Below are positions 15,853-56,890 of a stretch of 64,000 bases of DNA, in pieces. Source of the stretch: Capitulum mitella (taxonomy: Eukaryota > Arthropoda > Thecostraca > Pollicipedomorpha > Pollicipedidae); the NCBI GenBank assembly GCA_030062745.1, contig CP099841.1:29949398-30013397 (forward strand), given 5' to 3'. Below the pieces are notes generated by a model. That model did no database searches, was not told the origin of the DNA, and saw nothing but the letters and a program-made list of their open reading frames with translations. Position 1 is the stretch's first letter. Every line of letters starts with the position of its first letter. The translations under genes and the position numbers were made by a program.

Positions 15853-17012
15853 TTAACCCTATTCCCGGAGGGCTAGACGGTATGGTCGATTCCCGGCAAG
15901 GGGGTGGGTGGCGGATTCGGCCCCTGAGATCTCGAGAACTACACATCCGATTTCAACGCAATAAAGGGCAATCGATTTGCCATGACGTAAACTACACTTT
16001 GAAGAAAGAAATTTTCAAAATTTTGAAAGGAATGGATACAGGGGGGGAAATATCGAAATGGGGGTACATTTGGACTTCTTATAACTCCGTTGTTTATGGA
16101 CAAATTTTGATGAAATTGGCATGAATCGAGAGATTGTGGATGGAACTTTTAAAATTAGCACACACATTTGAAATTTTGAGAAAATTCATAGGGGTTGACA
16201 GGGTTTCAAAAATAGGAGGATTAGTTCTTTAACATCTGAATGAACAAAAAAGGCAACAAGCACTTTTTTGGCGTGACTCTGCTAGTCATGGTATGCTAAA
16301 GAAATACAAATCGTATTACAATGTTTGTATAATCTTAGCATAAGCGGTGTCAGGGACATGAAAAAGGGGAACTATCATGGTCACATGTTCCTCAGATCAA
16401 CTTGTGATCTTTGACCTCAAAGGACCTCCAGTGACCTTGGAGTCACTTGGAAGGATCTCGTGTGCATTTAATATTGTCTGCAAACGTTTCCAATCATTTG
16501 AATCCACCCCATTTCAAAAATCCCATTTTACGGCTATTGAGATATAGGGTACGCGCACTGACATTTTAGGTCATAACTCCGTGACCCGACCTGATTTCAA
16601 CCTGGAACTTGATACACAAGTAGAGGGCAAACTTCTACGTCAGATATATTCCGGGTTTGGTATTTCAAAGAATAGCAACGAAATTATTACTATAAAATCA
16701 AATTCCAAATTTTGATCTTGATCTAACCTTGTAAAGTGACCTCAAATAAACAAAATTGTATTTGCACGTTGCCCAGCTATTTAGCTATACATCCATATCA
16801 AGTTTAAAGTTCTATCTTAAAAACATTATTTTCGACAGTCATTTTCCTTTTACCCTCAGCAGGGCCAAAAATAGCCATTTCGTCACAGTACGAAGAAAGA
16901 ATAGCTAGGAAAAGTCACCAAGTTTCGTAAACCTGAGTTAAGAACCCTGGAATTGGCAAGCAGAAAACCCGAAGGGCCGCGGATTCAGCCCCCCTACCAG
17001 GAATAGGGTTAA
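15853..17012 (+). mobile_element. piggyBac-like MITE, copy 1
   Basis: TTAA (15853-15856) is followed by CCCTATTCCCGG at the left end. The right end is the near-inverse (CCAGGAATAGGG) and is followed by TTAA (17009-17012). TTAA target duplication with CCCT termini is diagnostic of piggyBac-type elements. The 1152-bp body has no transposase. A short open frame at the left end (FNPIPGGLDGMVDSRQGG...) recurs in other copies but shifts frame between them, so it is not a preserved protein. A second ATTCCCGGCA word lies 35 bp inside the left end. Inside is an inverse-strand AGGTCA half-site set at 16405-16437. This copy lacks the ~45-75-bp CAGGRGCGGAGCC insert seen in copies 2-4. Confidence 0.86.
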
Positions 17013-20000
17013 CGCCCCTTGGTGCATTTCTTAAATATCTTCCAAACGAATAAAAGCACCGTCCTGAAACTTTCAGTGCCCTTTTTTTACACTAGTTCCG
17101 CACATACTGACAAGTTTTTGGAAACAAATTCATCTTATCTCATGTCTTAATGACGTCATAAAGATGACCAAGTTTTGCAGTTTGACATTCAGTTCTACTT
17201 CACCGCCGTATTACCGGTGTTTGACCTTTAGTAGTTTTATTTAGATTTCAGCCTAGCGAATAAACTGGTGGCGTCTGATAGACATTGTGAATGACCGATG
17301 TGCAGATATCGGCCTATGCATTGTTGTGCTATATTTCGTTGAAATTCCGAAATGTACGACATGGGCAGACTGACCTGTAGGGTCATCCAGAGATGTCGCA
17401 TGGAGGTCATTTGCGTGCTCGTGCTACTCCGAGTATGAAACTACGAAATGTTGCAATGTTGCCTGTGCACGATGATTGGGGCTATTTCGGTTTTTTGTGG
17501 CCAAGGTTCTTTAAAAGTGACATGTTTAGAATCTTTGTGTCAAATGGGCCAGGAAACAGGTATCGCACGCCACGTTACAACGGAGGTGAACTCGATCTGA
17601 CAAGTGATCTTGACCTTGCATGACCTTGGGCCAGGTGGCACTGGATGTGAAATCTAACTGCCAGGAGCATATTACCACGCAAACTTTGGTTTCGTTCTTC
17701 TTTTCATTGGGATAAGGCGACCCTGAAAAAATGGCCACTTTTTCGTATTTGACCTAACCTGTGACGTCATCAGTCATCCCAAAGTAAAAAAATACACATG
17801 TCATAGTACCGCAAGGTTCGGTGCTATCGTTTGCCGTTAAAATCAGCCAGATCGGACCACTGGTTCTCGAGAGAGACGGGGGAGCGTTAAACGCCCCCCC
17901 CCCAGTCGATGGAAGGTGGCGAAATACCCCAGTCAATGCTGGGTTGATATAACGGCTGTTATTGCATTGCGCATATTGGTCGTTATCATGCTCTCTGCAA
18001 ACCATGTAAGAATGCAATCGATCTAGGATCGCAAGCTGTCAATGTTTGAACTGAGCGGTAGGAAAGGGCACACCAAAAATAAATGCCAGTAATTGCAGTT
18101 CTTCCCAGAATCCATCACCTCTGTCTGCAGTGCGTTATAACTGTTATCGATCTGCGATCTAATCGAAAGTTAGCCCAACACCTCATCTTAGATGCTCATT
18201 TGGCCTGACCTGGATTATCATGGGCTTAGATAAAGTGCTGGTCTGCTAGAAACGCAAACACTGCACGATGCCCATTTAAGCCTGAATGGAAAAATTACCA
18301 TGTTAACTGCGCTGACCCAACTTGATCCGGTGTACAGGGCCAATCGTGACGCATGCATAAAAATACTTTGGGACTTCACTGTAAAAAATATAATCTATCA
18401 AGTGCCGTTTTTCCAAATCACTCTTTGTTTTTGAACGACTGAGAGGAGAGTGAGTCGTCACTTTTCATAGGCCGTATTGGTTAAAATGCTCCGCAGTGCA
18501 TGGGTTAATAATGCTTCTGTTCAGAACATGCGTGCCATTGAAAAATGGAGATATCTGGACCAGGGAACTGTGTTAAATTGTCAACAGGTGAATGCTGGCA
18601 GCAAAGAACCTGCGCCAGACCAACTGCTCTCCAGTCCAAATCCAAACATGATCTTGTTCAGCGAGCAGGCGTAACAGGAGGGCGAGCTCGTCCACCTCAT
18701 TTAGTTACATGTATGACAGACTTCACCGTAGGCGGCAAGCGACACAGAATCAGCTGTATACCGCTGTCCAATACTAGTATGTGCATAGGAGCACTCAGCT
18801 CTTTGTATATACCAAACAGATAGGCACCACGCCGGCATGTGGTTTCTTACGGTTCGATTGCAGAGTGGAGGTAGTAAACCCACGTTTTCCTCCAGCGAAG
18901 AGTGCAAACCACACGGCAGAACATCCAAAAGGACCTTGCAAGGTTGCACATATGCGGAAATAGCAGACATTCTAGCAGAGGTAGGATCGTCAAGAAAATG
19001 CCTCCTTTTTCGGAAGAAAGTGGTTCGCACCGTCACCATCGAACATGGCATCTCCCAACAGTTTCTTGCCCGGAAGCTCGGAAACCCTCAGTGCTATAAC
19101 CGGATAACCCTGCAAGAGGCTGAAATAAAATGTCGGAAAAGAATGAAAGCACCCCAAGTGGACGAGTTTCCGGCGCAAACAATTCGACTCCGCCAACTTC
19201 CATGTGCGTCATTTTGGGCGCCGAATGACCCTGTAGTCGGTGCGCCCCTAAGCCCCAGTAACCAACCAACCAACCACGTGCGTCACTTAAGAGTGGAGGG
19301 CAAGTGGAAGCCGTCATGGATGACGAATTCTGTTTCGAGTACAGTGGCAGCCATATGCCTTCATACACCAGATTTTATGCTTCAGCTCGTGGAGAAGTCC
19401 CTTGCCAAGTCATGTACCGACCAAACAGCAGGTACTCACGTAAGCCCCTTGTCCAGATTCCCATGAGTTCGAGGTCTACTCACCCAGTGATTTTAGCCTG
19501 AAGTACAATACGAACGGCGAAATATACCAGAAAAGTACTTGCAGAATGTTCTGTTACCGTTTATGGACGCATGGTGTCCGGCCAATGACGAATTGTGTTG
19601 CCAAGAACTCGCCAGCGCTGAATACAGCCGCCAGACCCTGGAGCTTCTGGAGGAGGTCATTGTGCTCGTACCAAATGAAATGGACGCATTCTGTGCTCCC
19701 CCCCCACACAGTTCCGGCTTATTAAAGGCCTGCAGGGCATCATTAAGCTGCAAGTGTATCGGGAAGGGTGGCAGGCGAATCAGACTTTCGGCTGAAACGG
19801 AGAATAAAGCACCTACGTGCCAGGTGTAGGCGGAGGTGCCGCGAAAGATGATTGAGGGAGCGCTCGCTCGCATGAGTCTGGCGCCCAGCATAAGCATAGT
19901 GTTGCAGGTTCATTAAATACGGCATGACCGCAATAACGTGAGGTAACCGTGACATTCTTTTTGTTTGTATTGAACGAGGCCTAGGCAAATGCAGAGCTTT

Positions 20001-20375: not shown

Positions 20376-20379
20376 TGTC

Positions 20380-20936
20380 ACATTTAAGTCGGGAATTTCT
20401 GATGTCTGTTGTGTCATCTACCGCATTGTCATCGATCAGACATAACACTGCATAAGATCCTAGCATAACATCGATTCATGCGATATCACTTTGACATCAT
20501 GAAACCCATCCCTCAAATAATTTCTGTCACGTAATTCACAAAGACACAGAGCGGTGCTGTAGTAAATGAACACCTGAAGTCATATCTGGCCATTTCACCT
20601 GACATTGCAACTTACGGGAAAATGTCTTGCTAAAGGCAAGAATCGCGTTTTTTTCTCATTGCAAAAAACTATTTAGGCTAAATCACGCCGAAAATGCGTT
20701 TAGGATGCATATCAAGTCTGAAACCATCATACGAAGGTCAAACAAGGTCAACCTAGGTCAAATGTTTGTCACATTTAAGTCGGCAATTCCTGATGTCTGT
20801 CGTGTCATCTACCGCATTGTCATCGATAAGACACAGCATAAGATCCTACAACATCGGTTCATGCGATATCGTTTTGACATTATGAAATCCATGTCCTAGA
20901 TCATTTCTTTCACGTAATTCACAAAGACACAGAGCG
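20380..20936 (+). repeat. Direct duplication of a ~175-bp segment
   Basis: About 20383-20552 and 20766-20936 share GTTTGTCACATTTAAGTCGG, CTACCGCATTGTCATCGAT, GCATAAGATCCTA, TTCATGCGATATC and CACAAAGACACAGAGCGG in the same order, separated by a ~210-bp unique spacer. The spacer ends in three AGGTCA half-sites at 10-bp spacing (20735-20760). Confidence 0.85.
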
Positions 20937-22990: not shown

Positions 22991-22996
22991 ATCAAC

Positions 22997-23200: not shown

Positions 23201-23391
23201 TTGAATGCAGGTAACCCCACAATCGTGCATACAGAATACAGAATACGGAATACCACGGCAAGATTCATGCACACCACAATAGCCTAAAGCAGGTGTCAGG
23301 CGTATGCATAAGGTCTTGGGCATCAGCATCCAACGCCACTGCAAATTCACAAACTGGGTTTTAACAAATGCACCACACAAATCTCGTCTGC

Positions 23392-23600: not shown

Positions 23601-23679
23601 AGTTTTATGCTTCCATTTCATGCAAATTGGATGAGTGATTGCTCACTGACTCGTGTGCGCCATAATGCGTGGACAAGGT

Positions 23680-25075
23680 TCGCCATCACCATTGGCCTGG
23701 TCGTGAAGCCAATGGTGATGGCGGATCCAAAGCTCCCGGAGTCAGGTAGATCTGATCGCCACGCAAACCGAGCCGAACGGGCAGTTTAGGTTCATACTTA
23801 CAGATGTATTTTGCCTATTTGGTGCCCCCTTCACCATAGTGAAGGGGGCACCAAATTCCGCATAGTGACAATGGACGAAAGTTCGCCAAGCGAGTCATAA
23901 CTGAATTCACTAACATGTGGAGAGGCTTAAAAATCGTTCACGGAAAACCGCGTCAATCACTAAGTCAGCGCTCTGTTGAGAGGTACAATAGGGACGTCAG
24001 AGACATACCGTCAGCATGACTGGTCGCTGAGGGGACGGACAAATGGGGAGAAGGATTCAGGTTTATTCAAAATATGAAGAACCGCTCACTTCACGCAGAC
24101 ATCAAGCGCAGCTCGTGTGAGGCCATGTCTGGCGCAAGACAGCGCACTGGATTCGCCGACCGCGTTCTTCAAAGTGGCATGCTGGCACGCACAGCTGCGG
24201 AAGAAGACCTCGAGGCGGCGCTGACGGAGCTGTTTCATGACAACGTCACACTCACATAGTCAGATGATGAACGTGATGACAGTGGAGGAAGCCGAGCTGT
24301 CAGAGGAAAACATGAGGGTTGGAGAAAGACAGGCAAGGAGCAGTTGTTCACCGGAAACCGATCAAGTTGAATGGAGAAGAAGCATGTGCAGTGTGTGGAA
24401 ACAAACGACAGGTTAGTCATGTCAGTCACATCTAGTAATGCACCGTTTTATGCGTGAGCTTTACTTGACATCGCCGCCCTCTGACCCCTGCGATGTTTTA
24501 TCACCTCGACGATGGGCTGTAATAGCCACAAGTACTTTGTGGATCGCCCAAGTATTTGTCTATGTCTATGATGCCAACATGTTTCAACTATCACTATAAT
24601 GTGCACGCAGTATATGAAAAAGACGAGGGAGACCAAGAAGGGTACGGTAGCGAACTACTATGCAGCTTTTGTGTAAGTTTAAACGTTGCAATGGAACACG
24701 GACAGGCAAAGAAAGCGCTCACTGAACGGGCGGAACGAATGACGTCAGCGTCCACCAAAACATTTCCGCCAGCGCAACGCGAAATAAATGTCTTAGCTCG
24801 GAGACCTGATATCAGCAGGAGAGGATGGCCCCCAAGAACGTCTGGGCTGTTGTTATGGAGGTGAATGAGAACGGCCTGCACAAACTGGGGATCCAAGCCG
24901 GTGAAATACGGCGGCTCTATTTGAGGAACGAGTTTTCGCTGCATGACTCAGATATAAGAAATGTAGGGTATACGGTAGGCATTCGGGAACATCTCTGGAT
25001 CAGTCCAGGCCACAGGGATTCATCAAGTGCCAGTGTAAGCGGTATTGTGTGTCGATAGGAAGTGGTGTCTCAGCA
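23680..25075 (+). pseudogene. Decayed KRBA2/SCAND3-like integrase element, copy A
   Basis: The frames in order read as the integrase type found in KRBA2/SCAND3 and related Ginger-like transposons. VVKPMVMADP (23709) comes first, then FCLFGAP, and NGRKFAKRV near the second catalytic Asp region (~23870-23895). HGKPRQSLSQRSVER (~23938-23982) carries the catalytic Glu; a TGA follows, then KWGEGFRFIQNMKNRSLHADIKRS up to EEDLEAAL (~24230). Downstream come EACAVCG (24383), EGYGSELLCSFC...AERM (~24637-24745), PKNVWAVVMEVNENG--KLG...LYLRNEFSL (24827-24945) and a Cys-rich QGFIKCQCK in another frame (~25010-25040). It carries frameshifts and a stop, and lacks ~90 bp between the first Asp region and FCLFGAP that copy B keeps. 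It cannot encode an active protein. Confidence 0.75.
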
Positions 25076-25504: not shown

Positions 25505-26150
25505 GACAGACAATGCTGGCGCATACATTATGTCTGTCAGCACCGTCGGCGCCGCCTCGAGGTCTTCTTCCGCAGCTTTGTGAGCCAGCATGTCATCTGG
25601 AAGAACGAGGTCGGCGAGTCCAATGCGCTGTCTTGCAACGGACATGGCCTCACACGAGCTGCGCTTGATGTCTGCGTGAAGCGAGCGGTTTTTCATGCTT
25701 TGAATAAAGCTGAGTCCTTCTGCCCACTTGTTCGTCCCCTCAGCGGCCATTCATGCTGACGGCACGTCTCTGACATCCTGACTAGACCTTTCAACAGAGC
25801 TCTGACTTAGTGAGTGTCGCAGTTTTCCGCAAACGATTTTTATGCCTCTCCACATGCTAGTGAGTTCGGGTATGACTCGTTGGCGAACTCCCGTCCATTG
25901 CCATTATGCAGAATGCAGGGGCACCAAATAGGCAAAATATATCTGTCCAATGATACGCCACTTCCTTAACGGTTTTCGTTTTGAGTGCTCAAAGAACTGT
26001 AAACTTCTTGAGGTGATCTTGGTAGTTAAGTATGAACCTAAACGGTCCGTTCGCTTCGATTCGCATGGCGATCAGATCTACTTGAAAGCGGGAGTCTGGA
26101 TCCGCCATCAACATTGGCTTGACGATCATGCCAATAATGATGACGAATTA
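25505..26150 (-). pseudogene. Decayed KRBA2/SCAND3-like integrase element, copy B
   Basis: The minus strand reads IVKPMLMADP (~26130-26100), then QVDLIAM with the first Asp of the DDE triad, FILNYQDHLKKF, a stop, KTVKEVAYHW and DIFCLFGAP. NGREFAN follows (~25905) and, after a 1-base frameshift, ELTSMW, GKLRHSLSQSSVER with the catalytic Glu, a TGA, then KWAEGLSFIQSMKNRSLHADIKRS to EEDLEAAP (~25548). It is clearly the same family as copy A at 23680-25075, with its tail pointing toward it. The homology stops at ~25545, so the C-terminal Cys-rich part is missing. It is inactive. Confidence 0.75.
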
Positions 26151-29100
26151 TGACGCATACGATTCAGTGCTTGATCATTCATCCAGTTTGTATTTTTTTC
26201 TGGTGCTATGCACATGCTAAGAATAATTTTGATTGTCCTTTCCACATGGCTTGGAAGGATGCCTTTTTTAACGATCCAGACTTCTAACCCAATTTCGCGC
26301 CTTCAGCCGTAGCCAAAATATAAAACACGAGGCAAGACTTTTCAGTCTGTACAGGTACATGATAATCAGTACCCCACCGTCATTTGATTATGGGATACTG
26401 CTTATATTCATTACCCCACAATACTGGCAACTTTCGTGATGTGAAATACAATCCTGATGTTGATTTGCATACGGAAACATTCTGGAAACTTGTTCACTTC
26501 AGTGAAACTGGCTGGTGCGAGACGATTATCAGCCCGGCTTTGATAGAGATCTGAAATCCGGTGCATAGTACAGCCTAATTTTATGACGTCATTTTGCCGG
26601 CGAAATTTAACTTCGGATATATTGTGACAAAGTTTGCATTAATGTCGGTCTGTTTTGTAATGTAAGACACAAACTTTTCTGAAGAGGGATTACCAATTTT
26701 ATCGCTATTTCGGCCAGATGACCGACAACTTTTTATTCTAAAGATCGTAAATCCCAAAATGACGTTGCCCAGATCCGGGGAGAAGCCCAGTTTTGAGACG
26801 GGGGGGGGGGTCCTTTAAGAGCCCATCGTCTGGTTTGCGCCACTGGTAGCGTCCCACAGTGAAAAATCCTTGGTGCCGCCCTTGCATACAGAAGTGGAAG
26901 TTTAACCTTCAAGAGCTTGATTTGACTTGTCATGAGTTACGTGCGGGTATTTCCAGAACAAAGCACCAAGGTACGGATAGAGACGTTCATCACGCCTCCT
27001 CACATTGCGTTCAGAATTGGTAGAAGGGGCTGTTCTGGACCCTGATTTAAGTTTTGGGATTTATGAAGTCGCGAGGTCAAGAGGTTACGGGATACAGGAT
27101 CATTGAAAATGTGAAGTCAAGGCCGCCGATCAACTAAGCATGTCGCTAGATTCCTATGATCAGAAACCTCTGCAAGGACAAAACTTTATATTATTAGGAA
27201 GATGAAGAACCTAGAAATGTGCTCCCATGAAACCTGGTTGTCTTGGGTCAAAGTTGCAAAGTTTATCCTTTGATGTATTTTTAATGTCAAGATCAAACGC
27301 ATTTTGCTCGTTTCGATTTCTTTTAAATTCACGCACAAACTAGGTCACACTGCTGGTAACAAACTCACAAAATTTCATTTAGTAATGGGAACTCTTGGGG
27401 TCAATGGGGGTCATGCGCCATGACCTAATTTAACCTCAGTGTTTACTAACCTCGCTTTATTTGAAAATAAGCGACATGAATGCCATTTGAAAACATTTGT
27501 CATATCCAGTGTATGCATGACATCAATATCCATCTTTCGGTATGTTTTCATAAACTTTACCCCTCGTCAGTGAACTGCATTTCGACAACTACGATGGTGC
27601 ATGGAGGGGGGATAAGAACCCTATGGCCATTGGCTCTAAGTTGAACCGGAGCCAGGAAACGAAAAACAGACGCGTTGTTTGTTATGTTAGAAAGCCAATA
27701 ATATCCGGTTTTAATGTCTTAGGTTAACCGGGGACCTCCCAAGTCAGTGATCCGAAATGTAAATGAAAAAAATGAAAATCGCGAAGCGGTTTCTTTGGAG
27801 GGCCACAGAACAAAACATTTCACAGTTCTCAAAGCTGCAAAATATAGGACTCATTCAGGCTTTGCAAATTTGATCGTGGCCTTTATGGTTACTTACGGCC
27901 AATAGCGCAGGTCATGTAAGGTCAAATCCCTCGACCGCCCGGAAAGGCGTAGAAACTAAGGCCATTACATGAACATGAATGAGTCAGAATGGTTTGAAAG
28001 GGATACCAAATAAAAAATCAACATTTCTAAATACCCTGCTCGCAACACATCACCGGTTGCTTGTGCCGTTTGTTGAGTTATCTTTCTAAAGTGACTTTGT
28101 TGGTGTCTTCGATGTGTACAGGGTACCCTGTGGCGTTGCAACGGATCGCAGAATTTCATCACCAAAGTGAGGTGCGCCGCACGTAAATGCGCACAGGACA
28201 CCGACAGACGTCAAAAGTCGCGCCGCCCTGAGCCCGCGCATACCGCATGCGCAGCGCGTGCTGTGCATTTCTGCAGAAAGGACAATAAAGCATTAAAGTA
28301 GAGCCTTCTCCGGCAGGAAAACGCAATACGCTTGCCGGCTGTGGGTGACAAACACGCTTCCACCGTCACCTCTGTCGAGCCGCTGCCCTCAGGGTGGTGC
28401 AATGTCTGAAACTGTCTACGGGATAGGCAACGACTAGGGGATGTTCGTCATTGTCAATCGTAGCAAGTGTAGGGACGGGGGATCCAGTCAGGTTTTTCCG
28501 GGAACCACAGAAACACGAGAGGGGTAGCGCGCCACGGTTCGTACTATCCTCGTGAGCATCCGTCGCAGACATTTCAAAACAAATCAAGTCCAGGTCATGT
28601 TAAGGTCACTGACCTCTGATGTCATTTCTGGAGCTCTGCAAAGCCATTTTTCCGAAATGTCGGGAAATCATAAATTTACGAAAGCAAGTGATACTCAAGA
28701 CGCAAGCTCGGGTCAAACTACATGTAAACACCTATGAGTTCCGCTAGGTTTGTGACCCCTTGTTTAATGACCCCGGTTGACCTACAATGGCCATTTTAAC
28801 CTCGGGTCGACTACAGGGTATTTTGCTTCCCAATTAGCCTACTCGACTATCGGTTAACCTAAAGCATTAAAACCGGATACCATTGCTTTCTTTCATGACG
28901 AATAACATGCATATTTTTGTTACGCGATCCTTCTCTCATGTAGAGGAAAATTGTAAGAGGATTCTTATCCACCCCATGCACCATCGGAACTGTTGAAATG
29001 CCGTATACTGGCGAGGAATAAAACATATGACAGCATACTGAATGACTGGGTACTGATGCCATGCACGTATTCGACAAAACAAATGCTTTAAATAATACCC

Positions 29101-31651: not shown

Positions 31652-34105
31652 CACATACACAGGGGCACAGCCAGCCAAAAATTTCGGGGATGGTAATCCT
31701 GGCCCAGCGATGGGATTCATTACTTCATATGTGCCGCCTGCACAAAAGTACTAACATATGATTTTACAGGAGGGTTCACAGTAAGGGCACAGCCAGCCCA
31801 AAATTTCGAGAGAGGGGATGCCTAAACAATGGTGTGCCTCAGCCCTATCAGTGGGCCCCTTGAATAAAAAGAGCCAGTGAACATTTTACGGCAATGGTTG
31901 CTTGCCGCTCCCAAACGCTATTACTTGCAGCCAACTGACTCTTCTGACTGTCGACGTTGTGCCGGAAACATGGTTTATTGGGGCGGCCAGGGGTGTGGTT
32001 TCCTATCTCTTTCTGTGTGCTATCTCTTTCTTCCCCGGCACCCACAAAACTGGAATCGGCATGCACATTGCATATGGAGCACCCACAACCTGAGGCGTTC
32101 TCAGCGGTTTTCTTAGATACGCTCCGCAGAGGCGCACCAAGAATTTTTCTGAGAGGGTAAGGGGCAGGCGAATGCAAATACATTAAAAGGTGCACCAAGC
32201 CGGCTTGTCCCGTTCGTCACTATCCCTACGAAATTCGTGCAGAAGCTGAAAGCCCTCACGAGCGGAAAGCTCATCATACCAAAGAAAGAAAGTGATTCGA
32301 ACGGCCACGAAAACACTCGGGTTCCGGATCCGAGGGCAAAATTGTCTTTTTTAAAAATGTAAAATATCGTATGGATTTAGGCACCTAAAACTGTTTTTAG
32401 AAAACCACATCTGTGCCCTCCACAGCTGCCAGGCGCTCCTCTGCAGGCCATCTCAGAGGGCCCCCACCGGCCCTAAAAGAAACCATGCAGGCGGCGGCAA
32501 GGTCCCCTGCATTTCAGCACGGCTCCCGTCCATGCCGCCCAGGAGCCAGCTTCGGTCAAGCAAGAGGCCCCTTCCGAACGGCAGCTGACCCCTACGGGCC
32601 GGCAAGGCCCCATAGAACAGCAGGGAATCCCTCCACAGGTCAGGAGGGGCCCTCCGAAGGCTGGCGGTGGTCCCACAGGCCGATAGGGGGCCCTACAGTT
32701 TGATAGGGGCCCCCCTATCAGCCTTGATCTATGCATTTAATCTTTTGTCTTCTCTTTCCCAGCGTTCTTAACCCTATTCCCGGAGTGCTAGACGGTATGG
32801 TCGATTCCCGGCAGGGGGGGGGGGGGGCGGATTCAGCCCTTCTGAGATCTCGAGAACTACACATCCGATTTCACCGCAACAAACGGCAATCGACTTGCCA
32901 TGACGTGAACTACACTTTTGTAAAAATAAATTTTCAAAATTTTGAAAGGGGTGGATACAGGGGGCAAAAATGTCAAAATCAGGGGTATTTTTGGAGTTCT
33001 TATAACTCCCTTGTTTATGGACTGATTTTCATGAAACTGGCATGAATCGAGAGATTATAGATATGGCTTTTACATGGGTACACAAATCTGAAATTTTGAG
33101 AAAATTCATGGGCGTTCACAGGGTTTCAAAAACAGGAGGATTATTTTTCTAACAACTGAATGAACAAAAAGGGCAAAAACACTTTTTTGGCTTCCGCTAG
33201 TCATGTTATGCTAAAGAAATACAAATCGCATCACAATGTTTGTACAATGTTAGCATAGGCGGTGCCAGGGACATGAAAAAGGGGGAAACTGTCATGGTTA
33301 CACGTTCTTCAGATCAACTTGTGACCTTAAATGACCTCCAGTGATCTTGACGTCACTTGGAATGATCTCAGATGCGTTTAATATTATCTATAAACGTTTT
33401 CAATAATTTCAATTCACTCTCTTTCGAAAATTTCATTTTATGGCTATTGCGGTATGGTGTACGCTCGCTGACATTTTAGGTCATAGCTCCGAGACCCGAC
33501 CTTATATCAAGCTGAAACTTGGTACACAAGTAGAGGGCACCCTCCTAAGAGTCATATATATGCCGGGTTTGGCATCTGAAAAAACGGTGCCGAAATTATT
33601 GCAAAAAAAACAAGTTTTGACTTTTGACCTTGACCTGACCTTGTAAAGTGACCTCAAATGAACAAAATCACATCTGTACATTGCCCAACTATTTAACTAT
33701 ACATCCATATAAAGTTTTAAGTTCTATCTTAATAATTCTGTTTTGGCGGACATTTTCCTTTTACCCTCAACATGGCCAAAAATGGCCTGAGGGGCCTGCC
33801 AAAAACATTGGCTGGCTCCGCTCCTGAGCAAAATGGAATTTTGAAATTTTGTCACGGCGCGTAGAACGAACAGCTAGGAAAAGTGACCAAGTTTCCTGAA
33901 GCTGCGTTAAAAAGCCTGGAATTGGGAAGCAAAAAACCCTAGGAGGGGGGCGGATTCAGCCCCCCTGCCGGGAATAGGGTTAAAGCATTTTCGCGATAAC
34001 TTCGGTTCACATAAGAGTAATTTTCTAATCTCAGTAGGCCCCTTTAAACATTTCGGGGGTCCTGGGACCCCTAGGGGCCCCGCTGGCTGGGCCACTGCAC
34101 ATACA
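31652..34105. mobile_element. hAT-like non-autonomous element with perfect 8-bp TSD
   Basis: The left end CAGGGGCACAGCCAGCC (31660) and the inverse right end (CGCTGGCTGGGCCACTG, ending 34097) are flanked by identical 8-bp repeats cacataca (31652-31659 and 34098-34105). That makes a 2438-bp hAT-type insertion. Without the nested piggyBac-like MITE (32768-33983) it would be about 1.2 kb. A second copy of the left-end phrase (GGGCACAGCCAGCCCAAAATTTCG) lies at 31785, so the left end is duplicated or a second relative is nested. The interior includes GGCCCC-rich segments (32430-32720). No transposase frame is present. Confidence 0.83.
32768..33983 (+). mobile_element. piggyBac-like MITE, copy 2 (nested in a hAT-like element)
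   Basis: TTAA at 32768-32771 and 33980-33983 flank a 1208-bp body starting CCCTATTCCCGG and ending CCGGGAATAGGG. It aligns along its length with copy 1 (shared phrases GCTAGACGGTATGGTCGATT, GAACTACACATCCGATTTCA and others) in the same orientation. A long G run (near 32813-32826) sits close to the left end. It includes the CTGAGGGGCC...GGCTGGCTCCGCTCCTG insert absent from copy 1. It lies wholly inside the hAT-like element 31660-34097, so it is the younger insertion. Confidence 0.87.
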
Positions 34106-34375: not shown

Positions 34376-34960
34376 CTCCCAGTAGAGCGTGGTGTCGATG
34401 GTCACGCCCAGCATCTTCACGAACGACGAGGGGGTGAGTAGGTGGTTTCCATTGTTAAGCTGGAAGGAAGAGGCTTTCTTGAAGGACTGTCGAGCTCCGG
34501 CAGTGAGGAGGGTGATGGATTCATCAACAGGGAGTTGGGAAGAACATATGACCGTACAGCGAGGGTGGTCTCCTCCTGCCGACATTTGAGGGCAGACAGG
34601 TGAACAGGAAGCACGGAGTCCAGCAGATGGGTGTCGTCGGCATTGGACACTAGACACGAGACACGTCTATGTGGAAGGTAAGAAGGGGAGCCGTTCTTGC
34701 AGGTGCTAAACCGGCGGGGACCAACAAGGGACCCCTGGGGCACACCATGGGATAAAGGAAGGGAAAGGGAGCCGCCCTTCACTACTTGCCGCCGGCCACT
34801 GAGGTAGCTTTCAAACCACCTCGGGTTGATGCCGTACCACTGCAGCTTTGTCAGGGCACCGTCAACAAGGCTGTCAAATGCTTCGCTGAGGCCGATGGAA
34901 GTAACGGCAGCTTCGTGTCCTGCGTCGATTCGACGCGAGATTCATTCGATCGACACAGTG
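34376..34960 (-). pseudogene. Non-LTR reverse transcriptase remnant (CR1/Jockey-like)
   Basis: Read on the minus strand, the RT boxes are in order: GLSEAFDSLVDGALTKLQWYG (first catalytic Asp, about 34890-34840), SYLSGRRQ, GVPQGSLVGP (about 34746-34718), and NADDTHLLD where the canonical box is YADD (34644-34618). After a frameshift come LLTAGARQSFKKAS and FVKMLGVTID--L-WE (about 34420-34376). The 5' end (endonuclease) and 3' thumb/tail are missing, and the YADD Tyr has become Asn. The element is dead. It lies ~280 bp beyond the hAT-like element. Confidence 0.8.
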
Positions 34961-39524: not shown

Positions 39525-39780
39525 GCCGCCGTAAAGCTGCGGCGCCGGCCGGTGTCATCAATGACTGCCCGTTAATCACGCCGCCCGCCGAGCACGCCCC
39601 TGCCCCATTCGGAGTGTCGCATTACGACAACAAAGGCGGCGGTTATGGGCCGGCGGTGTTGGCTGCCTGTCTCTGATATTCATAGCCCGCCGGCGGCAGG
39701 CAGGCAGGACACAATGCTGCCGGCAGTGGCGGCGGGGCCGGCCATCTGCAGGTCCCCGGGGAGGTCTGACGCAGGCCGGC
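39525..39780. promoter_or_regulatory. GC-rich candidate regulatory block
   Basis: CGCCGGCCGGTGTCATCAATGACTGCCCGTTAATCACGCCGCCC and GTCGCATTACGACAACAAAGGCGGCGGTTATGGG are embedded in CpG-rich DNA directly before a 41-bp minisatellite whose unit shares the CCGCCGGC vocabulary. Confidence 0.28.
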
Positions 39781-39787
39781 GTCATCT

Positions 39788-40165
39788 GCACCCTGTGCGG
39801 CTACTGTAGCCGCCGGCCGGTGTTATGTGTACTCTGCCTGGCTGATGTAGCCGCTGGCTGGTGTTATCTGCACCCTGCTCGGCCACTGTAGCCGCCGGCT
39901 GGTGTTATCTGTACCCTGCTCGGCTACTGTAGCCGCCGGCTGGTGTTATCTGTACTCTGCTCGGCTACTGTAGCCGCCGGCTGGTGTTATCTGCACCCTG
40001 CCCGGCTACTGTAGCCGCCGGCTGGTGTTATCTGTACCCTGCTCGGCTACTGTAACCGCCGGCTGGTGTTATCTGCACCCTGCCCGGCTACTGTAGCCGC
40101 CGACTGGTGTTATCTGTACCCTGCCTGGCTGATGTAACCGCCGGCCGGTTATATCAGCCGTACCC
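39788..40165. repeat. 41-bp minisatellite, about nine copies
   Basis: The unit is CTGTAGCCGCCGGCTGG followed by TGTTATCTGTACCCTGCTCGGCTA. The copies alternate between TGTACCCTGCTCGG and TGCACCCTGCCCGG variants in the centre, suggesting two-unit (82-bp) duplication steps. The edges are more diverged. Confidence 0.93.
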
Positions 40166-45549: not shown

Positions 45550-46793
45550 TTAACCCTATTCCAAACAGGTGGGGTCTGAATCCGCCCCCTTCAGGTTTTT
45601 TGCTTGCCAATTCCAGGGTTTTACTTGTCTTTACTTGTCCTAGCAATTCTTTCTACGTACTATGACAAAATTTCGAAATTCTATTTTGCTCAGGGGCGGA
45701 GCCAGGTAACGTTTTTGGGAGACACCTCAGACCATTTTGGCCCTGTTGATGGTAAAAGGAAAACGACTGCCAAAAATAACATTTTTAAGATAGAATTTAA
45801 CACTTCATATGGTTGTATAGCTAAATAATCGGAAAACATACTTACGCAATTTTGTTAATATGAGACCACTGTACAAGGTCAGGTCAGGGCCAAAAGTCAA
45901 CATTCGTTTTTATAGTAATATCTTCGGCGCTATCCCTTCAAATGCCAAACCCGGAATATATATGACGCGGAACTTGTTTTGAACTCTTTTTTTGAACAAA
46001 ACTTGAACTCTACTTGCCTATCAAGTTTCAGCTTGATATCAGGTCGAGTCACGGAGCTATGACCTAAAATGTCAGTGCGCGTACCCTATATCACAATAGC
46101 CATAAATTAGAATTTTTGAAACAGAGTGAGTTCAAATGATTGAAGACGTTTTGAGATAGTATTAAATGCACACGAGATCATTCCAAGTGAGCCCAAAGTC
46201 ACTGGAGGTCAGTTAAGGTCAAAGGTCATAAGGTGATCTGAAGAACATTTGGTCATGACAGTTCCCCCTTCTTCATGCCCATGGCACCGCCTATGCTAAC
46301 ATTACACAAACATTGTAATGCGATTTGTACTTTTTCAACATAACATGATTAACATAAACATAACATAACACAACATAACATGACAAAAAAATGTTTTTAT
46401 CTTTTTTGTTCATTCAGCTGTTGAAAAAACTAATCCTCCTGTTTTTGAAACCCTGTGAATGCCCGTGACTTTTCTCAAAATTTCTAATGTACGTACCAAT
46501 GGCAAAAGTCCCATCCATGGTCTCTCGATTCAAGGCAATTTCATCGAAATCGATCCATAAACAAGGAAGTTATAAGAAATCTAAAAATATCCTGAATTTG
46601 GCATTTTCCCCCGGGATCCACCCCTTCCAAAATCCTGAAAACTTCGTCTTTAAAAGTGCAGTTTACCTCATGGCGGATTGATTGCCGTTTGTTGCGATGA
46701 AATCGGAAGTGTAGTTCTGGAGATCTCAGGGGGGCCGAATCTCCCCCCTGCCGGGAATCGGCCATGCCGTCTAGCTTCCGGGAATAGGATTAA
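45550..46793 (-). mobile_element. piggyBac-like MITE, copy 3
   Basis: The orientation is inverse to copies 1 and 2. TTAA lies at 45550-45553 and 46790-46793; the termini are CCCTATTCC and GGAATAGGA (one mismatch). The phrase GGCCATGCCGTCTAGC near 46760 is the inverse of the copy 1 left end. It has a private expansion of an ACATAAC microsatellite (about 46337-46384). The half-sites AGGTCA-GTTA-AGGTCA-A-AGGTCA lie at 46206-46228. Confidence 0.84.
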
Positions 46794-48014: not shown

Positions 48015-51000
48015 TTTTTCGGAGACTATTTTTCCTCCGCTTAAATTTGTAACTAATGTATGAATCAAAACGTTTCAGGTCGCTAAAGATAGTCTTCAAC
48101 GAGGACTCTAAAAAAACGTGCGGCTTTCAGTGCTGAGCGTTACGGATGACATCACAAGTCCGGTCAAATAGTAAAATAACGAATGCCTCCTCCCTTTACG
48201 CTACCGTGGATGTTCTTATAACAGTCGGAATCGTAATTCATCACATGGAGCCGTTTTAAAACCTTCAAAAGGCGTTCCAAAAGTCAGAGGAAAGGACAAA
48301 CGGTCAAGGTTGCAGGTCAAAGCCAATGTCAGCTTAAAGGCCAAGGCCAACTTTTCATTAAAAAATGACTTCAGATGCCACAAAACTGTTCTGTACATCA
48401 ATAAGAGGGTAGAATGAACGCCGGCATGAGAATCGACGTCTCCGATTACCCCAGAAACCATGTAAATAGGATGACATAGAGAAAAATGCATGACACTGGA
48501 CTGCACATTCCATGACGTTAGCCTGAGCACGAAATTAGATGAAAAAGACATTATTTGCAGAATCTTGGTTGATCCATTGATACCATATTTGTTGCCTCAT
48601 CTTCATAACTAAATTTCTAGCGAATCTTTCTGCTCGACTGGGACTTGAACGGATCGGTTCACGCGATGCTCAATTTTGACCTGCTCTTGCTCCGTAAAAG
48701 GCTTGAAAGTATCAAGAAAAACCCAGAGGGGAGAATAGCGCCGCCCCCAAGCGAAAGGCGAACTAATCTTGAGAATGGCACATCGCATAGGCCAGGAAAT
48801 TTGCATGTGCATGCGGCACCACCCGTAGATGGGCCTTTACCGACTTCTAAAGCGCCAGCTGCACCATTTTCTCCGCAGCATGTTGCACGAGTTTCGTGAC
48901 TGAGAATTACCCGAAGGGACGTGTGGTGATCAAAGGACGTGTCCTAATGAGATAAGAAAATTCCAAAATTGAGAGAATGCAAAGAGCAGGCACAATGACA
49001 CTGTCTGATGGCCAAAGAATGTCGTATGAGCTTGATCATATAGATATACAGATGCGTTTTCATGGAGACTAGAAGTGGAACCCCAGTGCCTTCGGCGTTG
49101 CATCAGTAATCCTTAACTTTAGCATTAGGCCTATGGGAATGCTTGCCAAGAATGAACCTAAATCGCTCTTAGCAGCACCAGTGATATGGACGTGGCTACA
49201 CCCTTGATGGCGACTGAAAAATAATATACTGCAGTTCTAGCGCATGTATTGATTTATGTATCGCTGACACGTAATTAAGTCAGCAAGAGAGGGCAGGTGG
49301 GGGTATGGGCAAGACAAGTGTATTTCAAGGACAAGAAAGAAAGGCCAAATAAAAGACCCAGTGATCGGCACTGTGGAATGCGGTGGAATGAATACGCAAA
49401 GCTGTAAATGGACAAACGTATATCATATTCAGCCATTGCAGTCTTGTGCCTTCGTCAAGTGATCAAATTACTCCACATATTTCTCTTATTTCAGCTAACT
49501 GGCCTTCACATCGGCTCCTCGAGCCATCCGTTATATTAAGTGGCAGATATTCGGAGGAGGCATTTATGTGCTGCGTTAGCCCGACACTGCCTGGGAGAGA
49601 TTTCAAATAGGACACCACTCGGTTTTTGTTGGATAACTCCTGAACAGTTAGAAAAAAATAGAAAATTAACCACCGAATTTTCAGTTCCTAGAACTATTTT
49701 CATGCTAGGTCAGGTCGTGGAGAAATTATGTCATAAGTGAACCTTTGCATACATGTTTTGTTTTCTTCGGACGGTGGAGCGAGCATGCTTCGTTTTTTGA
49801 CTATATTCATGAATATAACGCATTAATTATTTCGATATACATAGGCAACGGTCCCCAAATGGATATGCAACCATAATATGTCAACATTAGAGGTCCTACT
49901 AGGTCACAGATGATGACAATGACACTATTTGCATTGTGGGTGACAAAAGTGGTTGTCGCTGACAAGCAAAGATAAGAAAATCTATATGCAATCTATATGG
50001 AAATCTATAAGCAAATCTGGGAAGCAAATCTATATGCGACTCTTAGCAAGGTTCACCAAATGCAACGTGAGATCATTTCAAGTCACGTCACAAGTGAATG
50101 TCAAAACGATATCAAATACAACATTGTGGAAGATCGTTCGGCAGAGAGTAATTATTGTTCATAGTCAGAAAAAGGAAAATAACTATCCTGACCTGCCTAG
50201 ACCTGGACCAGATAAAGAGCAGACAGCGCAGATTTAATTATCACGAGATGTCGTTTCAGTTCAGTACTTGACGCATTCACGAATCCCGACAAGTATTCAT
50301 TGCTCTTTGTCAGGAAGAATAAGGTAACCTTGTCTGACCTGACCTAGACTGACCTCGACTAGACGAAAAACAGGTAATGCACAATTCACCATCAGAAGGT
50401 TTCACTTCCGACATTTCTGTCACATGGATTAAAATGGTTGTAAGAATCCATCTTTGGTATGTAACGTAAAACGGAAGTTTCACCTGACCTAGGTTAATCC
50501 TGACCCGACATATTTCAACATTCTGGCATGCTTCTCATGCAGAAGATCGCGACCTTTCGTTTCATACCCAGTTAGGACTCTAAGACCATTGTTGCCGATG
50601 ATACGAAGTACAAACCAGTGTCAGTTTTCCCGACGTCGTGTTGTGCGTTTTACCTGACCTGGCGTCACGTGACCAGGGCTAACATAGTATCTTCTGAATC
50701 GCAAGACCCATGGCTACCGATTGCTGGTAGACCGGTTCAGATCCGACCGTTAGCTCCTGAAATGACGGGAGGGCGGCGGGGAGGGGGGGAGCGTGGTGGG
50801 AGACGCCCTTCTTGACACTCCCAGGCGGCCGTGGGCACAAAAACACGTCAGATGATGCCGGGTTAAGTGATGACAATCTCCTTCCGAGCCATGCAGAACA
50901 GGACCGAACAAAACCAGGCACATGGATGTTACTGAGAACGGATGGAAGCGACTGCATTGTACACGGTCGTCAACGGGAATTGAAGCAGGACATGCCGTGC

Positions 51001-51860: not shown

Positions 51861-51867
51861 TCTTCAC

Positions 51868-53300
51868 AGAAAAGGCGTGAAGAATAATCTTAGCGTAGCC
51901 AGAAGCAGGGTCGCCGCCTCCCATTGTGATGACCCACCGAAGTAATAATACATATTTCGCAATCTAAAAGTGAAGAATAATTCATGGCAAAGCTTCCAGT
52001 TCATGGGTTGGCAAAAACTCAACAGCGACGGCGTCAGGGGTAAAGCAATACAGGCCTGCGACGTGCTTCTTGCCCCCCCCCCCCTTTCCGATTGCAAGAA
52101 CGCCATTGAAATAAAAATGACTGTTTTGTGGGTCAAATAAAGAAGAAGAATTTAGCACAGAGCTCCCAACTCATGGGGGAACAAAAACTCGATAGTGGCA
52201 GTCAGGACCAAGGCAAGGGTGGCATATACTACCCTTCCCCCTCCCCATACAGTGGCACCATCGAAGCGTATAAGTGCCCATGGCCTGGGCCAAAAGCAAG
52301 GAACGATTGACAACAGAGCTTCCAACTCATGGGACAGTAAAAAATCTATGGTAACCGAGTCAAGACCACTGCCAGGGAGGTGAATATCCCCCCCCCCCCA
52401 CATTGTGGTGACGTGATCGGATTAAGAGTGCGTATTTTGGGGGCCAAACGGAAGGAATAATTTACGGCAGAACTTCCCACACAGAGGCAAAAACTCAGTA
52501 CAGCGGAGGAGTCATGACTAGGGCAAACAAGTCATACGCCCCCCCCCCCTTGTGGTTACGTCATCGATGTAGAAGTGCCTTTTTCGCGTGCCAAACGAGA
52601 GGAATAGTTCACGGCAAAGCTTCCAACTCACGGGACAGTAAAAACTCCACAGTGACGGTGTCAGCCAAACGAGAAGAATAATTCACGTCCAACTCACGGT
52701 ACAGTAAAAACTCAACGATTGCGGAGTCAGGACCACGGCAGGAAGGCGGATGCCCCCCTTTCCCTTTCCCTATTTTGGTGACGCTATCGAGGTATGAGTG
52801 CCTATTACGCGTGCCAAACGAGTGGAATAATTTACGGCAGAGTTTCCAACTTACGGAACAGAAAAAAATTCAGCAACGGCGGAGTCAAGACCATGGCAAT
52901 AGAGGCGGAAGACCCGCCTCCTCTTATCATGATCATGTCATCGAAATAAAGTATATTTCGCGAGTCATGCGGGAATCATAATTTACAGCAGAGTTTCAGA
53001 ATCGCGGGACAGTGAAAACTGGCACACTGGCGGAGTCAGGCCCAGGGCAAGGGAGTCATGCTCTCTCTCCCCCTCCACGCCATATTGTGTTGGCGAAGGA
53101 ATCAAAGTGCCTATTTTGCGGGCCAAACACGGAGAATAATTCGCCGCGGAGCTTCTTAATCACGGGACAGAAAAAACGCAATTATGGAGGAATCAAGACC
53201 ACGGCAATGGAGGCGGATGCCTCCCCTTATTATGGTGACCTTGTCGAAAGGTATCTGTTTTGCATCGCAAGCGTCAGAAATAATTTACATCGCTTTGGAA
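51868..53300 (+). repeat. ~150-bp satellite array, nine to ten copies
   Basis: The unit opens with GAATAATTTACGGCAGAGCTTCCAACTCA then CGGGACAGTAAAAACTC, continues with GGAGTCAGGACCA-GGCAAG, a poly-C stretch, TGGTGACGTCATCGA and AAGTGCCTATTTTGCGGGCCAAAC. Starts are near 51868, 51972, 52141, 52299, 52452, 52601, 52824, 52973, 53131 and 53274, with one short unit at 52673. Spacing is 143-169 bp in most cases. The poly-C tracts differ in length from unit to unit. Confidence 0.88.
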
Positions 53301-53895
53301 AAGTTACTCACTTATCTCCGCGACCTTTTTATTTAAAATCAGTACCTTCACAGTATCCTGGCCTATGAGCTCTTTTTTCAGGGCATGCCATAAGAAAATC
53401 ATGATATGGCGACTGTCATCATCGAAAACAAATGTTTGCAGCGTTTTACGGTGCTCTGTCTTCATCGCACATATGGATGGTATTATGATGTTGGAGGCCT
53501 CCTCACTCATGCCACTTGGATCAAGATCATCTTAAGCGAAATCATGAGCTAAGCTCACTGACCTTTTTGACCATTTTAATGGTCATTTAACTGATCACCT
53601 GACCATGCAACAACCTGATTAACCGTAATATTTTATCAAAGAACGGTATGTAAAGGCTAGCAATGGCAACAATATAAGTGCAAAGCCACTGCAGATCATG
53701 GGCAATACATCGAAAAGACTGCTACCAAGCAGTGAGGCCATTTATTTGTCTCTAATCCCACATACGAGGGTACATGTCCGCAAAGTTAACGACGAATTCT
53801 TCGACATCTGCAACTACATCCAAGACGACAGAACGTCAAAACCGTCAAACCTACGTCAACGTCAAAACCTACCAAAGTCCTGATATCAAACAACA
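53301..53895. other. Stretch without recognised features
   Basis: No supported gene between the satellite and the dispersed repeat at 53900. Confidence 0.5.
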
Positions 53896-53899
53896 CTAA

Positions 53900-56890
53900 A
53901 ACGAAACCTCTTGTTAAGAGCAAGCGTTGAATTGGAGGATCATATCTCACTTCTGGTTACAGCACGAATATGACTAGGTCAAAATCTTGGGTACCGTTTT
54001 TTGCTCTGATCACTGCTTTTGAGGAACGTCGCGACCCATCCATATGAAGGTCAGGGCTCCAAAAATGAATTACACAGGGGTTTGGGCCGATAAAGGCCGT
54101 CTTTTGACCTTGACCTCAGGTTTGAATCTGGGGTCCTGTTTATTGCCACTGTCACGACTTTGAGAATCTTCGTAAACAATTCCTATGAAGGCCAGAGCAC
54201 TAAAACTAAATCACGCAGGGTTTAACCCTATTCCCGGCAGGGGGGCTGAATCCGCCCACCCTCGGGTTTTTTGCTTGCCAATTCCAGGCTTTTTAACGAA
54301 GCTTCACGAAACTTGGTGACGTTTCCTAGCTATTCTTTCTACGAGCTGTGACAAAGTTTCACAATTCTACTTTGCTCAGGAGCGGAGCCAGGCAACGTTT
54401 TTGGGAGGCACCTCAGGCCGTTTTTGGACATGTTGAAGGTAAAAGAAAAATGTCTGCCAAAAACAGAGTTTTTAAGATAGAACTTAAAACTTTATATGGA
54501 TTTATAGCTAAATAGTTGAGAAATGTGCATGCAAAATTTTGTTTATCCGAGGTCACTTTACAAGGTCAGGTCAAGGTCGAAAGTTAAAATTTTTTTTTTG
54601 CAATAATTTCGGCGCCGTTCTCTCAAATGTTAAATTCGGAATATCTATGACGTAGAAAAGTGTCCTCTACTTGTGTAGCAAGTTTCAGCTTGATATCAGG
54701 TCGGGCCACGGAGCTATGACCTAAAATGTCAGTACGCGCATCCTATAACGCAATAGCCATAAAATGAAATTTTTGAAAGAATGAATTCAAGTGATTGAAA
54801 ACGTTTACAGATAATATCAAATGCACATGAGATCATTCCAGGTAACCCCAAGGTCACTGGAGGTCAGTTAAGGTCAAAGGTCACAAGTTGATCTGAAGGA
54901 CGTGTGACCATGACAGTTCCCCCTTTTTCATGTCCCTGACACCGCATATGCTAACATTATACAAACATTGTAATGCGATTCTTACTTCTTTAGCATAGCA
55001 TGACTAGCAGAAGCCAAAAAAGTGTTTTTACCTTTTTTGTTCATTCAGTTGTTAGAAAACTAATCCTCCTATTTTTGAAACCCTGTGAACGCCCATGAAT
55101 TTTTATACAATTTCAGATTTGCATACCCATGGTAAAAGCCCTATCCATAATCTCTCGATTCATGTCAGTTTCATTGAAATCGGTTCATAAACAGCGAAGT
55201 TATAAGAAGTCGAAAACTACCCCCCATTTTGACATTTTTGCCCCCCTGTATCCACAAATTTCAAAATTTTGAAACTTTCTTCTGGTAAAAATGTAGTTCA
55301 CGTGACGGCAAATCGATTGCCGTTTGTTGCGATAAAATCGGACGAGTAGTTCTCGAGATCTCGGGGGTGGGCCGAATCCGCCCCCCTGCCGGAAATCGAC
55401 CATACCGTCTAGCCCTCCGGGAATAGGGTTAAGCCGATACAGGTCACAATCTGACCTCGGCCTCGGTGAGAAACCTGGGGTACCGTTTTTTGTCCTGATC
55501 TTGATTTTTACGAATCGTCGCAACCAATTCATGTGCAAGCCATGATGCCTAAGACCAATTACAGAAGAATGTTTGTCCGGAAGAGATCATCATTTGACTT
55601 TGACGTCAGGTCAAAATAAAAGCCCTCATGATGAGATGTGTTGGTCGTTGCGGCTCGTTTATATGGATGTCAAGGTTCAAAAAATCAATTATGCAAAGGT
55701 TTACGTCACGGACGGGCAGTTATCTGACCTTGACATCAGGACTCCAACGATGTCGTTAGGAATGTACGCGATAACGCCTTCGATGACAGAGAACGACCGG
55801 ACTGCTTAAAGTGAACTGTTAACCTCTGTATGGGGTTTTGAGCTGAGATAGCAAGGTTGTAGCTTGGATGTCGAAATCATATCATCCAAAAGCTGTTTGT
55901 CCCCAAAAGCTTTCTTTTATGGTGCTAGAACAGATTATGTGAATGATTCTGAAGGGGAGTGCCAGATGCATAGTGACGTCATAGTACTAATGGCCAAATT
56001 TTGTTGATAATGTCAGCCGAAGTTGGCTAATCTTGGACAAGAGCGTTGACTTCGTTGCGGTTCGATTTGATGTCAGCAGACGACCGACTGGCGCTTGACA
56101 AGCCACACGACTTGATACGAGACTTGTCGTCTTCCGACCACGACGATAATGTTCACCTCTGATTGATGCGTCGAAAAAGAAGCCAGAAAACAAGCCATTC
56201 ATTGCGATTGCCAGCGGTTGCCACTCGCGGGAATAATGGTGGCCTGGGTCCCAAGTCATGCGGTTAAAATGTTGCGTTTGTGGTGCTACGGGGACTGTTC
56301 CTTCGTGAGTATTTGGCAATGTGGTGTTGCAGATGTCAGTGCTGCGCAGACGCAGTTGTCAGTATGATTTAGCACGAACTGTCACTGCAGCGCATCTTTT
56401 ATCCGTATTTCGTTTTCTCCTAGAGGCATGACGCCATATCACTGGGCGTCTGGCGTCACTCCTAAAATGACGTCAGGGTGTTGAGCACTTTCATCAAAAT
56501 TTTTGCATTTCCCGGGTTTTATGACAGAAACAAATAACGGAATCGTTATCTGCATACTTTGTTTAGTAATCTGCTGGACTGCCACCAAGGTGAGCTATTC
56601 TCTTTAACGCAGAATCATCAAACGATGCTCAAACAAAAGCTCACATCAAGAGCAAGCGTTTGTAGAAGAGGGAAGGGTAGATTACCTGTCTATCCGTTTC
56701 AACGTGGCATCAAGTCAAAACCCAGGGCATCGTTTTTCGATCTAATCGTTATTTTCGAGAAACGCGGCGGCTTAATCATACAACAGCCAGGGCGCCAAAG
56801 ACAAATTATGCAAAAGTTTTTGGCTGAAACAGGTCATAATTTGATATTGACCTCAGGCCAAAGTTTGCTGAACAGTTTATTTCTTCAGTA
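53900..56890. repeat. Diverged repeat cluster split by MITE copy 4
   Basis: Phrases recur on both sides of the MITE. AAGAGCAAGCGTT appears at 53920 and 56647; GGGTACCGTTTTTTG near 53990 and 55480; GAACGTCGCGACCCATCCATATGAAGG near 54024 and its relatives at 54165, 55512 and 55655; and GACCTTGACCTCAGG near 54105, 55605, 55725 and 56850. The units are ~100-170 bp and badly eroded. The MITE inserted after they formed. Confidence 0.65.
54222..55432 (-). mobile_element. piggyBac-like MITE, copy 4
   Basis: TTAA lies at 54222-54225 and 55429-55432, with termini CCCTATTCCCGG and CCGGGAATAGGG and a 1203-bp body in the same orientation as copy 3. It carries four AGGTCA half-sites at 54851-54883. The right-end frame (minus, about 55200-55538) shows the recurring LNPIPGGLDGMVD stretch, which breaks frame relative to the other copies. 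It sits inside a larger dispersed repeat (about 53900-56880). Confidence 0.86.

Follow-up and report, generated by a model that had tools for sequence, protein, structure and literature searches.

Why would a mobile element carry an ordered array of nuclear receptor half-sites, and is it the element or the host that gains from them? The question is raised by a 64,000-nt stretch of the genome of the barnacle Capitulum mitella (contig CP099841.1, positions 29,949,398 to 30,013,397; C3:29949398-30013397 in our contig naming), referred to below as the window, from an assembly of 477,042,490 bases in 16 contigs (GCA_030062745.1). Four copies of a miniature inverted-repeat transposable element (MITE) lie in the window, each with a cluster of AGGTCA hexamers. 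The original prediction, made from the letters of the window, was that an AGGTCA module of fixed spacing is conserved in a piggyBac-like MITE family and could spread hormone-responsive sites. Our analysis shows that the array is kept in the spreading lineage of the element, whereas landed copies decay near the neutral rate.

Four copies of a large TTAA-targeted family

The four copies occupy window positions 15853..17012 (copy 1, + strand), 32768..33983 (copy 2, +), 45550..46793 (copy 3, −), and 54222..55432 (copy 4, −). Each is about 1.2 kb long and flanked by TTAA at both ends; copy 1 is full length with a deletion inside, close to the 3′ end, and copy 3 is ∼15% off the sampled consensus, whose length is 1,217 to 1,218 nt. 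An anchor 25-mer from outside the AGGTCA module was found, with up to three mismatches, at 9,822 places genome-wide (4,971 plus 4,851), compared to 1 for the control. Pieces of the family were also present in 4 of 15 unselected 3-kb stretches from other contigs, where they made up 1,980 of 44,577 bases, or ∼4% of this small sample.

End-to-end alignment with the consensus was obtained for 74 copies. Of these, 70 are flanked by TTAA at each end, and the positions outside the TTAA carry at most 0.23 bits and show no sequence preference. The termini CCCTATTCCC follow immediately after the TTAA in 69 of these 74 copies, and the ends of copies 1, 2, and 4 agree with termini of this type at 11 to 12 of 14 positions. 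PiggyBac-type terminal inverted repeats start with CCC, as do those found here. Two copies split other repeats, each with a single junction: one (in L034) interrupts a repeat that is unbroken at 49.7 to 50.8 kb of the window, and the other (in L043) interrupts a second element that is bounded by TTAA, its junction showing an overlap of 5 nt. The TTAA ends, the CCCTATTCCC termini, and the two split host repeats are as expected from TTAA-specific, piggyBac-like insertion, and the four copies are members of a large family of this kind, as had been predicted. The family is short, noncoding, and present in very many copies, as MITEs are, ∼1.2 kb being at the upper end of MITE lengths; no open reading frame overlapping the window copies exceeds 128 aa. 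The window contained no Rfam match and no tRNA.

Half-site arrays inside the element

The complete module is AGGTCA-N4-AGGTCA-N4-AGGTCA-N-AGGTCA, i.e., two direct repeats with 4-nt spacers (DR4) followed by one with a 1-nt spacer (DR1). AGGTCA repeated as DR4 and DR1 is a classic nuclear receptor arrangement, and the element has the makeup of a putative nuclear receptor response element, AGGTCA half-sites at direct-repeat spacing. The genome contains 4,427 exact matches to the module (2,189 plus 2,238), compared to 0 for the reversed pattern, which excludes chance; viral contigs gave no match to it.

The module is retained to different degrees in the window. Copy 4 (54851..54883, +) has four exact AGGTCA hexamers, at 54851, 54861, 54871, and 54878, and copy 1 (16405..16437, −) has two of four exact, TGACCT at 16412 and 16432, with TGATCT at 16405 and GGACCT at 16422 each one base off. 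These hexamers, and all others in the original prediction, were correctly placed. Copy 3 (46196..46228, +) had been described as DR4 plus DR1, from AGGTCA at 46206, 46216, and 46223; the positions are right and the description is incomplete, since the one-off AAGTCA at 46196 completes a four-site module with three exact sites. Copy 2 (33322..33347, −) had been described as two DR4 pairs. Its positions are also right, and its second pair is imperfect: TGACCT at 33322 and 33332 is followed by the one-off TGATCT at 33342, and only these three hexamers remain, the DR1 partner having been removed by a 7-base gap.

The consensus contains 10 hexamers, TGACCT at 551, 558, 568, 578, 858, 864, 869, 882, and 1017 and AGGTCA at 714, whereas 5,000 dinucleotide simulations yielded 0.43 on average and never more than 4. 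The 10 hexamers include a second cluster of four half-sites at 858-887, ∼300 bp from the module (551-583) and with spacings of 0, −1, and 7, which the original prediction lacked. In the AGGTCA orientation, this cluster contains TCAAGGTCA, the extended half-site of ERR/FTZ-F1 type receptors. All four of its sites are exact in copy 2 (33625..33654, −; TGACCT at 33625, 33631, 33636, and 33649). Three are exact in copy 4 (54550..54579, +; AGGTCA at 54550, 54563, and 54568) and two in copy 3 (45863..45892, +, with ends placed from the alignment; AGGTCA at 45876 and 45881), and the cluster has decayed in copy 1 (16713..16742, −, with its start placed from the alignment), where the sole exact TGACCT is at 16737. 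The single hexamer at consensus position 714 is conserved at 16568..16573 (+) in copy 1, 33478 in copy 2, 46060 (−) in copy 3, and 54717 (−) in copy 4.

Conservation in the source lineage and decay after insertion

Parsimony was used to count changes on trees of family copies, with internal branches representing the source lineage and terminal branches the time after insertion. The copies came from contig C1 (0.26 to 19.9 Mb) and the window. They were sampled by the anchor, not by the module, and were those listed with 0 anchor mismatches; young copies are therefore over-represented. Loci found through the module (L001 to L008) were removed, as were short pieces that fail to span it; L009, L011, and L012, also found through the module, were retained because the anchor hit them independently. 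The hexamer set comprised nine half-sites (53 positions), and expectations were taken from base-matched positions, with CpG columns, the anchor, and the outermost 20 bases omitted.

With 92 copies and all columns, the half-sites showed 5 internal changes compared to 23.2 expected (P = 2e-4) and 131 terminal changes compared to 150.3 expected (P = 0.11). When the nine-site pattern was shifted circularly along the element, counts as low were obtained in 1 of 1,053 shifts for the internal branches and in 419 of 1,053 for the terminal ones. A run of 88 copies that excluded the window copies and used an IQ-TREE tree built without the half-site columns gave 2 internal changes against 20.5 expected (P = 1e-4), with none of 1,055 shifts as low, and 122 terminal changes against 136.9 expected (P = 0.15), a count that 448 of 1,055 shifts matched or undercut. 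In addition, a consensus drawn from the 11 copies with the highest divergence departs from that of all copies at 74 sites, none of which is within the 53 hexamer positions. An internal deficit combined with near-expected terminal changes means that the array is kept in the source lineage and released after insertion. Of the 92 sampled copies, 53 have an intact module and 48 an intact second cluster.

The predicted conservation of the module in the family therefore applies to the source lineage (2 changes versus 20.5) and does not extend to the landed copies, in which the half-sites change about as fast as other positions (122 versus 136.9; P = 0.15), the outcome that the original prediction had named as counting against it. 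Averaged over copies, the landed elements were not conserved beyond neutral expectation in either run (122 versus 136.9 and 131 versus 150.3), and the idea that hormone-responsive sites were spread and then retained by the host finds no support at the level of this average; individual copies could still be used.

Several observations weigh against so clean a division. First, the effect is weaker for the module alone, with 3 internal changes compared to 10.5 (P = 0.03) and 52 terminal changes compared to 67.6 (P = 0.07) in the 92 copies, and 25 of 745 same-shaped windows (3.4%) were as low internally as the module, so the half-sites are not the sole kept part of the element. Second, a run of 74 copies gave 8 internal hexamer changes compared to 21.8 (P = 0.007), which shows that the size of the deficit depends on the sample and the tree. 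Third, the tenth consensus hexamer, at 1017, was excluded from the hexamer set, and its third base is split between A and G (51 and 35 of 92 copies). Finally, in each of the four age classes a larger fraction of hexamers than of control 6-mers was intact (0.94, 0.83, 0.71, and 0.57 compared to 0.88, 0.67, 0.58, and 0.40), including the oldest (0.566 compared to 0.404). This excess could reflect some retention after insertion, in a measure that blends source changes with decay.

AGGTCA and DR4 outside the family

The motif is not confined to the MITE family. Outside the four copies, the window contains 71 AGGTCA hexamers compared to ∼26 expected (25.6 to 26.3), an enrichment absent from the original prediction. 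In hexamer rankings, which omitted low-complexity hexamers (fewer than three different letters) and were made on overlapping samples, AGGTCA ranked second in the masked window when ordered by ratio (2.70-fold, with GACGTC at 2.71-fold) and first in 88 kb of family-masked flanks (148 compared to 39.9 expected). In unselected stretches it was first in 45 kb unmasked and third by z in 42.6 kb masked (51 compared to 18.5). The pooled masked sample grew from 147 kb to 193 kb, and in the latter AGGTCA ranked first (275 compared to 85.8; z = 20). The CRE-like ACGTCA/TGACGT was second there (187 compared to 90.8; z = 10). Of 20 repeat clusters seen at least twice in the pooled sample, 8 had 3.9 to 10.7 hexamers per kb, 1 had a single hexamer, and 11 had none. 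The notion that all AGGTCA clusters belong to one MITE family was rejected, as most of the enrichment survives masking of the family.

AGGTCA-N4-AGGTCA occurs 32,896 times genome-wide compared to 499 for the reversed control, and spacings 5 to 9 pooled occur 23,264 times compared to 1,040. Among the first 100 DR4 places listed, 41 had spacers within one base of those of the MITE family, 12 were AGGTC tandems, and 47 were neither; among 100 listed places with spacings 5 to 9, 49 resembled the second cluster of the MITE, 7 were tandems, and 44 were other. By extrapolation from the initial 3 Mb of a single contig, with family membership judged by the look of the spacer alone, there are ∼15,000 DR4 pairs outside the family compared to ∼2,000 for each other spacing. 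Spacings 0 to 3 were counted in the pooled masked sample, which had 10 DR4, 9 DR0, 8 ER1 (everted repeat), and 7 DR-1 pairs and no DR2, DR3, or DR6. An AGGTC tandem array at C1:111538-111683 contains many overlapping DR4/DR9 matches.

Retrieval of 20 of the DR4 places classed as other showed that 1 belonged to the MITE family, 11 lay in other repeats, and 8 had no relative in the sample. The 11 repeat-borne places fall into at least four groups (R3, R4/R7, R5, and R6). A count of five separate groups was tried and cut, since L002 has R4-like and R7-like stretches flanking one family copy. Three groups are also found in the window, R3 at 49.7 to 50.8 kb, R4/R7 at 63.5 to 64 kb, and R5 at 20.4 to 21.7 kb, and their arrays there are DR-1 plus DR4 in R3 (50335..50355, −), a DR0 pair within a 135-bp tandem repeat in R4/R7 (63529..63540, +), and DR4-DR4 in R5 (20735..20760, +). 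Two further DR4 pairs lie outside the family, one adjoining copy 1 (17611..17626, −) and one at 27909..27924 (+). Similarity between groups around DR4 is short: of 26 matches, the 12 listed are 16 to 24 nt long and lie over the motif, and matches of the groups to the MITE family and to the second TTAA-bounded family described next are 13 to 21 nt.

This second family, F2, is a MITE-like, TTAA-bounded element of 1,227 nt (L088:573-1799) whose ends are reproduced in six loci; relatives are in L021, L023, L040, L043, L044, and L057. It carries eight AGGTCA/TGACCT hexamers in a different arrangement, which twice includes TGACCTGACCT-N-AGGTCA, and has weak similarity to the first family at the 3′ end (nhmmer E value of 1.8e-7).

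Possible reasons for the arrays

An array that is kept by the spreading lineage and lost by landed copies is most economically read as serving the element. The explanation we favor, for which we put the chances at about even, is that the half-sites were held by selection in the source lineage while it spread and were released after insertion, a putative host receptor having aided the spread. A host nuclear receptor active in the germ line or early embryo would bind the arrays, binding would hold source copies in an accessible state or close to active chromatin, and array-bearing copies would then out-multiply the others. What we infer in this account is selection for spreading, receptor binding, and germ-line activity. 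The classic DR4/DR1 layout, together with the sharing of the array by separate repeats, makes a nuclear receptor the likeliest candidate partner. The presence of AGGTCA, often as DR4, in other repeat families suggests that the same route was used repeatedly. Extended in this way, the proposal that several repeat families gained AGGTCA/DR4 arrays because receptor binding in the germ line helps multiplication is a tentative one, possible though on present evidence doubtful.

The main rival, which we consider unlikely, is that the hexamers are cis-acting signals for transposition, internal sites at which the transposase or a protein partner binds, with no role for a receptor. Some transposases bind short repeated motifs within their elements, and such signals would likewise persist in source copies and decay in inserted ones. 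F2, likewise TTAA bounded and weakly similar at the 3′ end (E value of 1.8e-7), has the hexamer too. However, the clusters, at 551-583 and 858-887 in a length of 1,217, are away from the ends, the arrangement differs in F2, and DR4 arrays are also found in groups for which TTAA ends are not shown.

The array might instead be a neutral passenger of a founder that happened to hold it, with the few source-lineage changes due to chance or locally low mutability. A single founder could account for every copy, and ∼3.4% of windows with the same shape have counts no higher than that of the module. However, the nine half-sites together fall below all but 1 of 1,053 shifts in one run and below all 1,055 in the other, mutability after insertion is near normal (122 versus 136.9), and the arrangement recurs in repeat groups whose listed similarities to each other (12 of 26 matches) span 16 to 24 nt over the motif. 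We regard this explanation as improbable.

A purely mutational source, in which DR-1 and DR4 pairs arise from AGGTC pentamer tandems (periods 5 and 10) and are repeatedly captured or generated without receptor selection, seems more improbable still. DR-1, DR4, DR9, and DR14 do share a 5-bp phase, the tandem spacer GGTC was seen in 12 of the first 100 DR4 places listed, and DR-1 is frequent in the masked sample (7 pairs). However, 47 of those 100 places are neither tandem nor MITE family, and DR0 (9 pairs) and ER1 (8 pairs) do not fit the 5-bp phase. Slippage was rejected as the origin of the MITE module itself, because the spacers CTGG and TTTA are unlike GGTC.

That the copies are hormone-responsive enhancers kept by host selection is very hard to credit and, for the family as a whole, was rejected as an average reading: the module has a textbook DR4/DR1 layout, and the available portions of the Alu reports describe receptor binding at such copies, yet terminal changes are close to neutral expectation and just 53 of 92 sampled copies have the module intact.

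If the tentative receptor-guided proposal were true, the half-site would be a spreading device shared among elements, and the resulting flood of DR4 sites, in the tens of thousands, may dilute or rewire the hormone network. Barnacle moulting and metamorphosis depend on hormone signaling, and if a receptor binds, ∼33,000 DR4 pairs would be a large load on it. The split between source lineage and decay, if upheld in more copies, points to a benefit for the element, and the general question of whether elements or hosts gain from host transcription factor sites can now be tested.

Other features of the window

A homeodomain exon is present at 11650-11730 (PF00046; E value of 1.1e-5) in an Rx-like context; its C-terminal part presumably resembles arthropod Rx. 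A reverse transcriptase fragment at 34417-34941 (−) matches PF00078 under the curated cutoff (E value of 9.7e-4). A long inverted repeat at 23891-24232 and 25538-25879 has 342-nt arms that are 87% complementary, 1,305 nt apart, and free of AGGTCA hexamers. An open frame at 24526-24864 weakly matches a SCAND3-like zinc finger (PF23663; E value of 1.3e-5; 25.4 bits compared to a cutoff of 27), and a 41-bp tandem array of 9.3 copies lies at 39770-40149.

Comparison with known systems

The repeat content of C. mitella is given as 3.53% in the accessible part of one report (PMC8416341). If the two genomes come from one species or from close relatives, most elements of this kind went unannotated. 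On nuclear receptor motifs in invertebrate transposons, piggyBac MITEs, or repeat families, nothing comparable was found in the accessible parts of the open-licence literature. One close likeness is in primates. According to the available sections of PMC1785376, Alu holds 90% of human consensus DR2 motifs and 50% of consensus DR4 motifs, and its DR2 arose largely through CpG deamination after insertion. As here, a mobile family has multiplied AGGTCA-type direct repeats genome-wide. However, as far as those sections go, Alu is a vertebrate retroposon whose DR2 was largely made after insertion, whereas the barnacle element is a TTAA DNA transposon with the array in the source and lost after insertion. 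Similarly, HNF4alpha sites in Alu and in other repeats such as Tiggers are documented with binding and reporter data in the accessible text of PMC3252374; there too nuclear receptor sites are borne by repeats, with the difference that binding was measured, whereas the MITE arrays are known from sequence, and that the host and element class are other ones. Brassicaceae MITEs amplified E2F sites (Henaff et al. 2014, as described in the available part of PMC12595863). By that description, they resemble the present case in carrying one host transcription factor motif, including most of its genomic copies, in several superfamilies, and differ in that the motif is a single 10-bp one in plants; here there are multi-half-site arrays in an animal, and a test that parts source change from decay. 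Finally, the family shares with other MITEs of the piggyBac superfamily the TTAA target, CCC...GGG termini, nonautonomy, and high copy number and is set apart from them by an interior that holds nuclear receptor half-site arrays.

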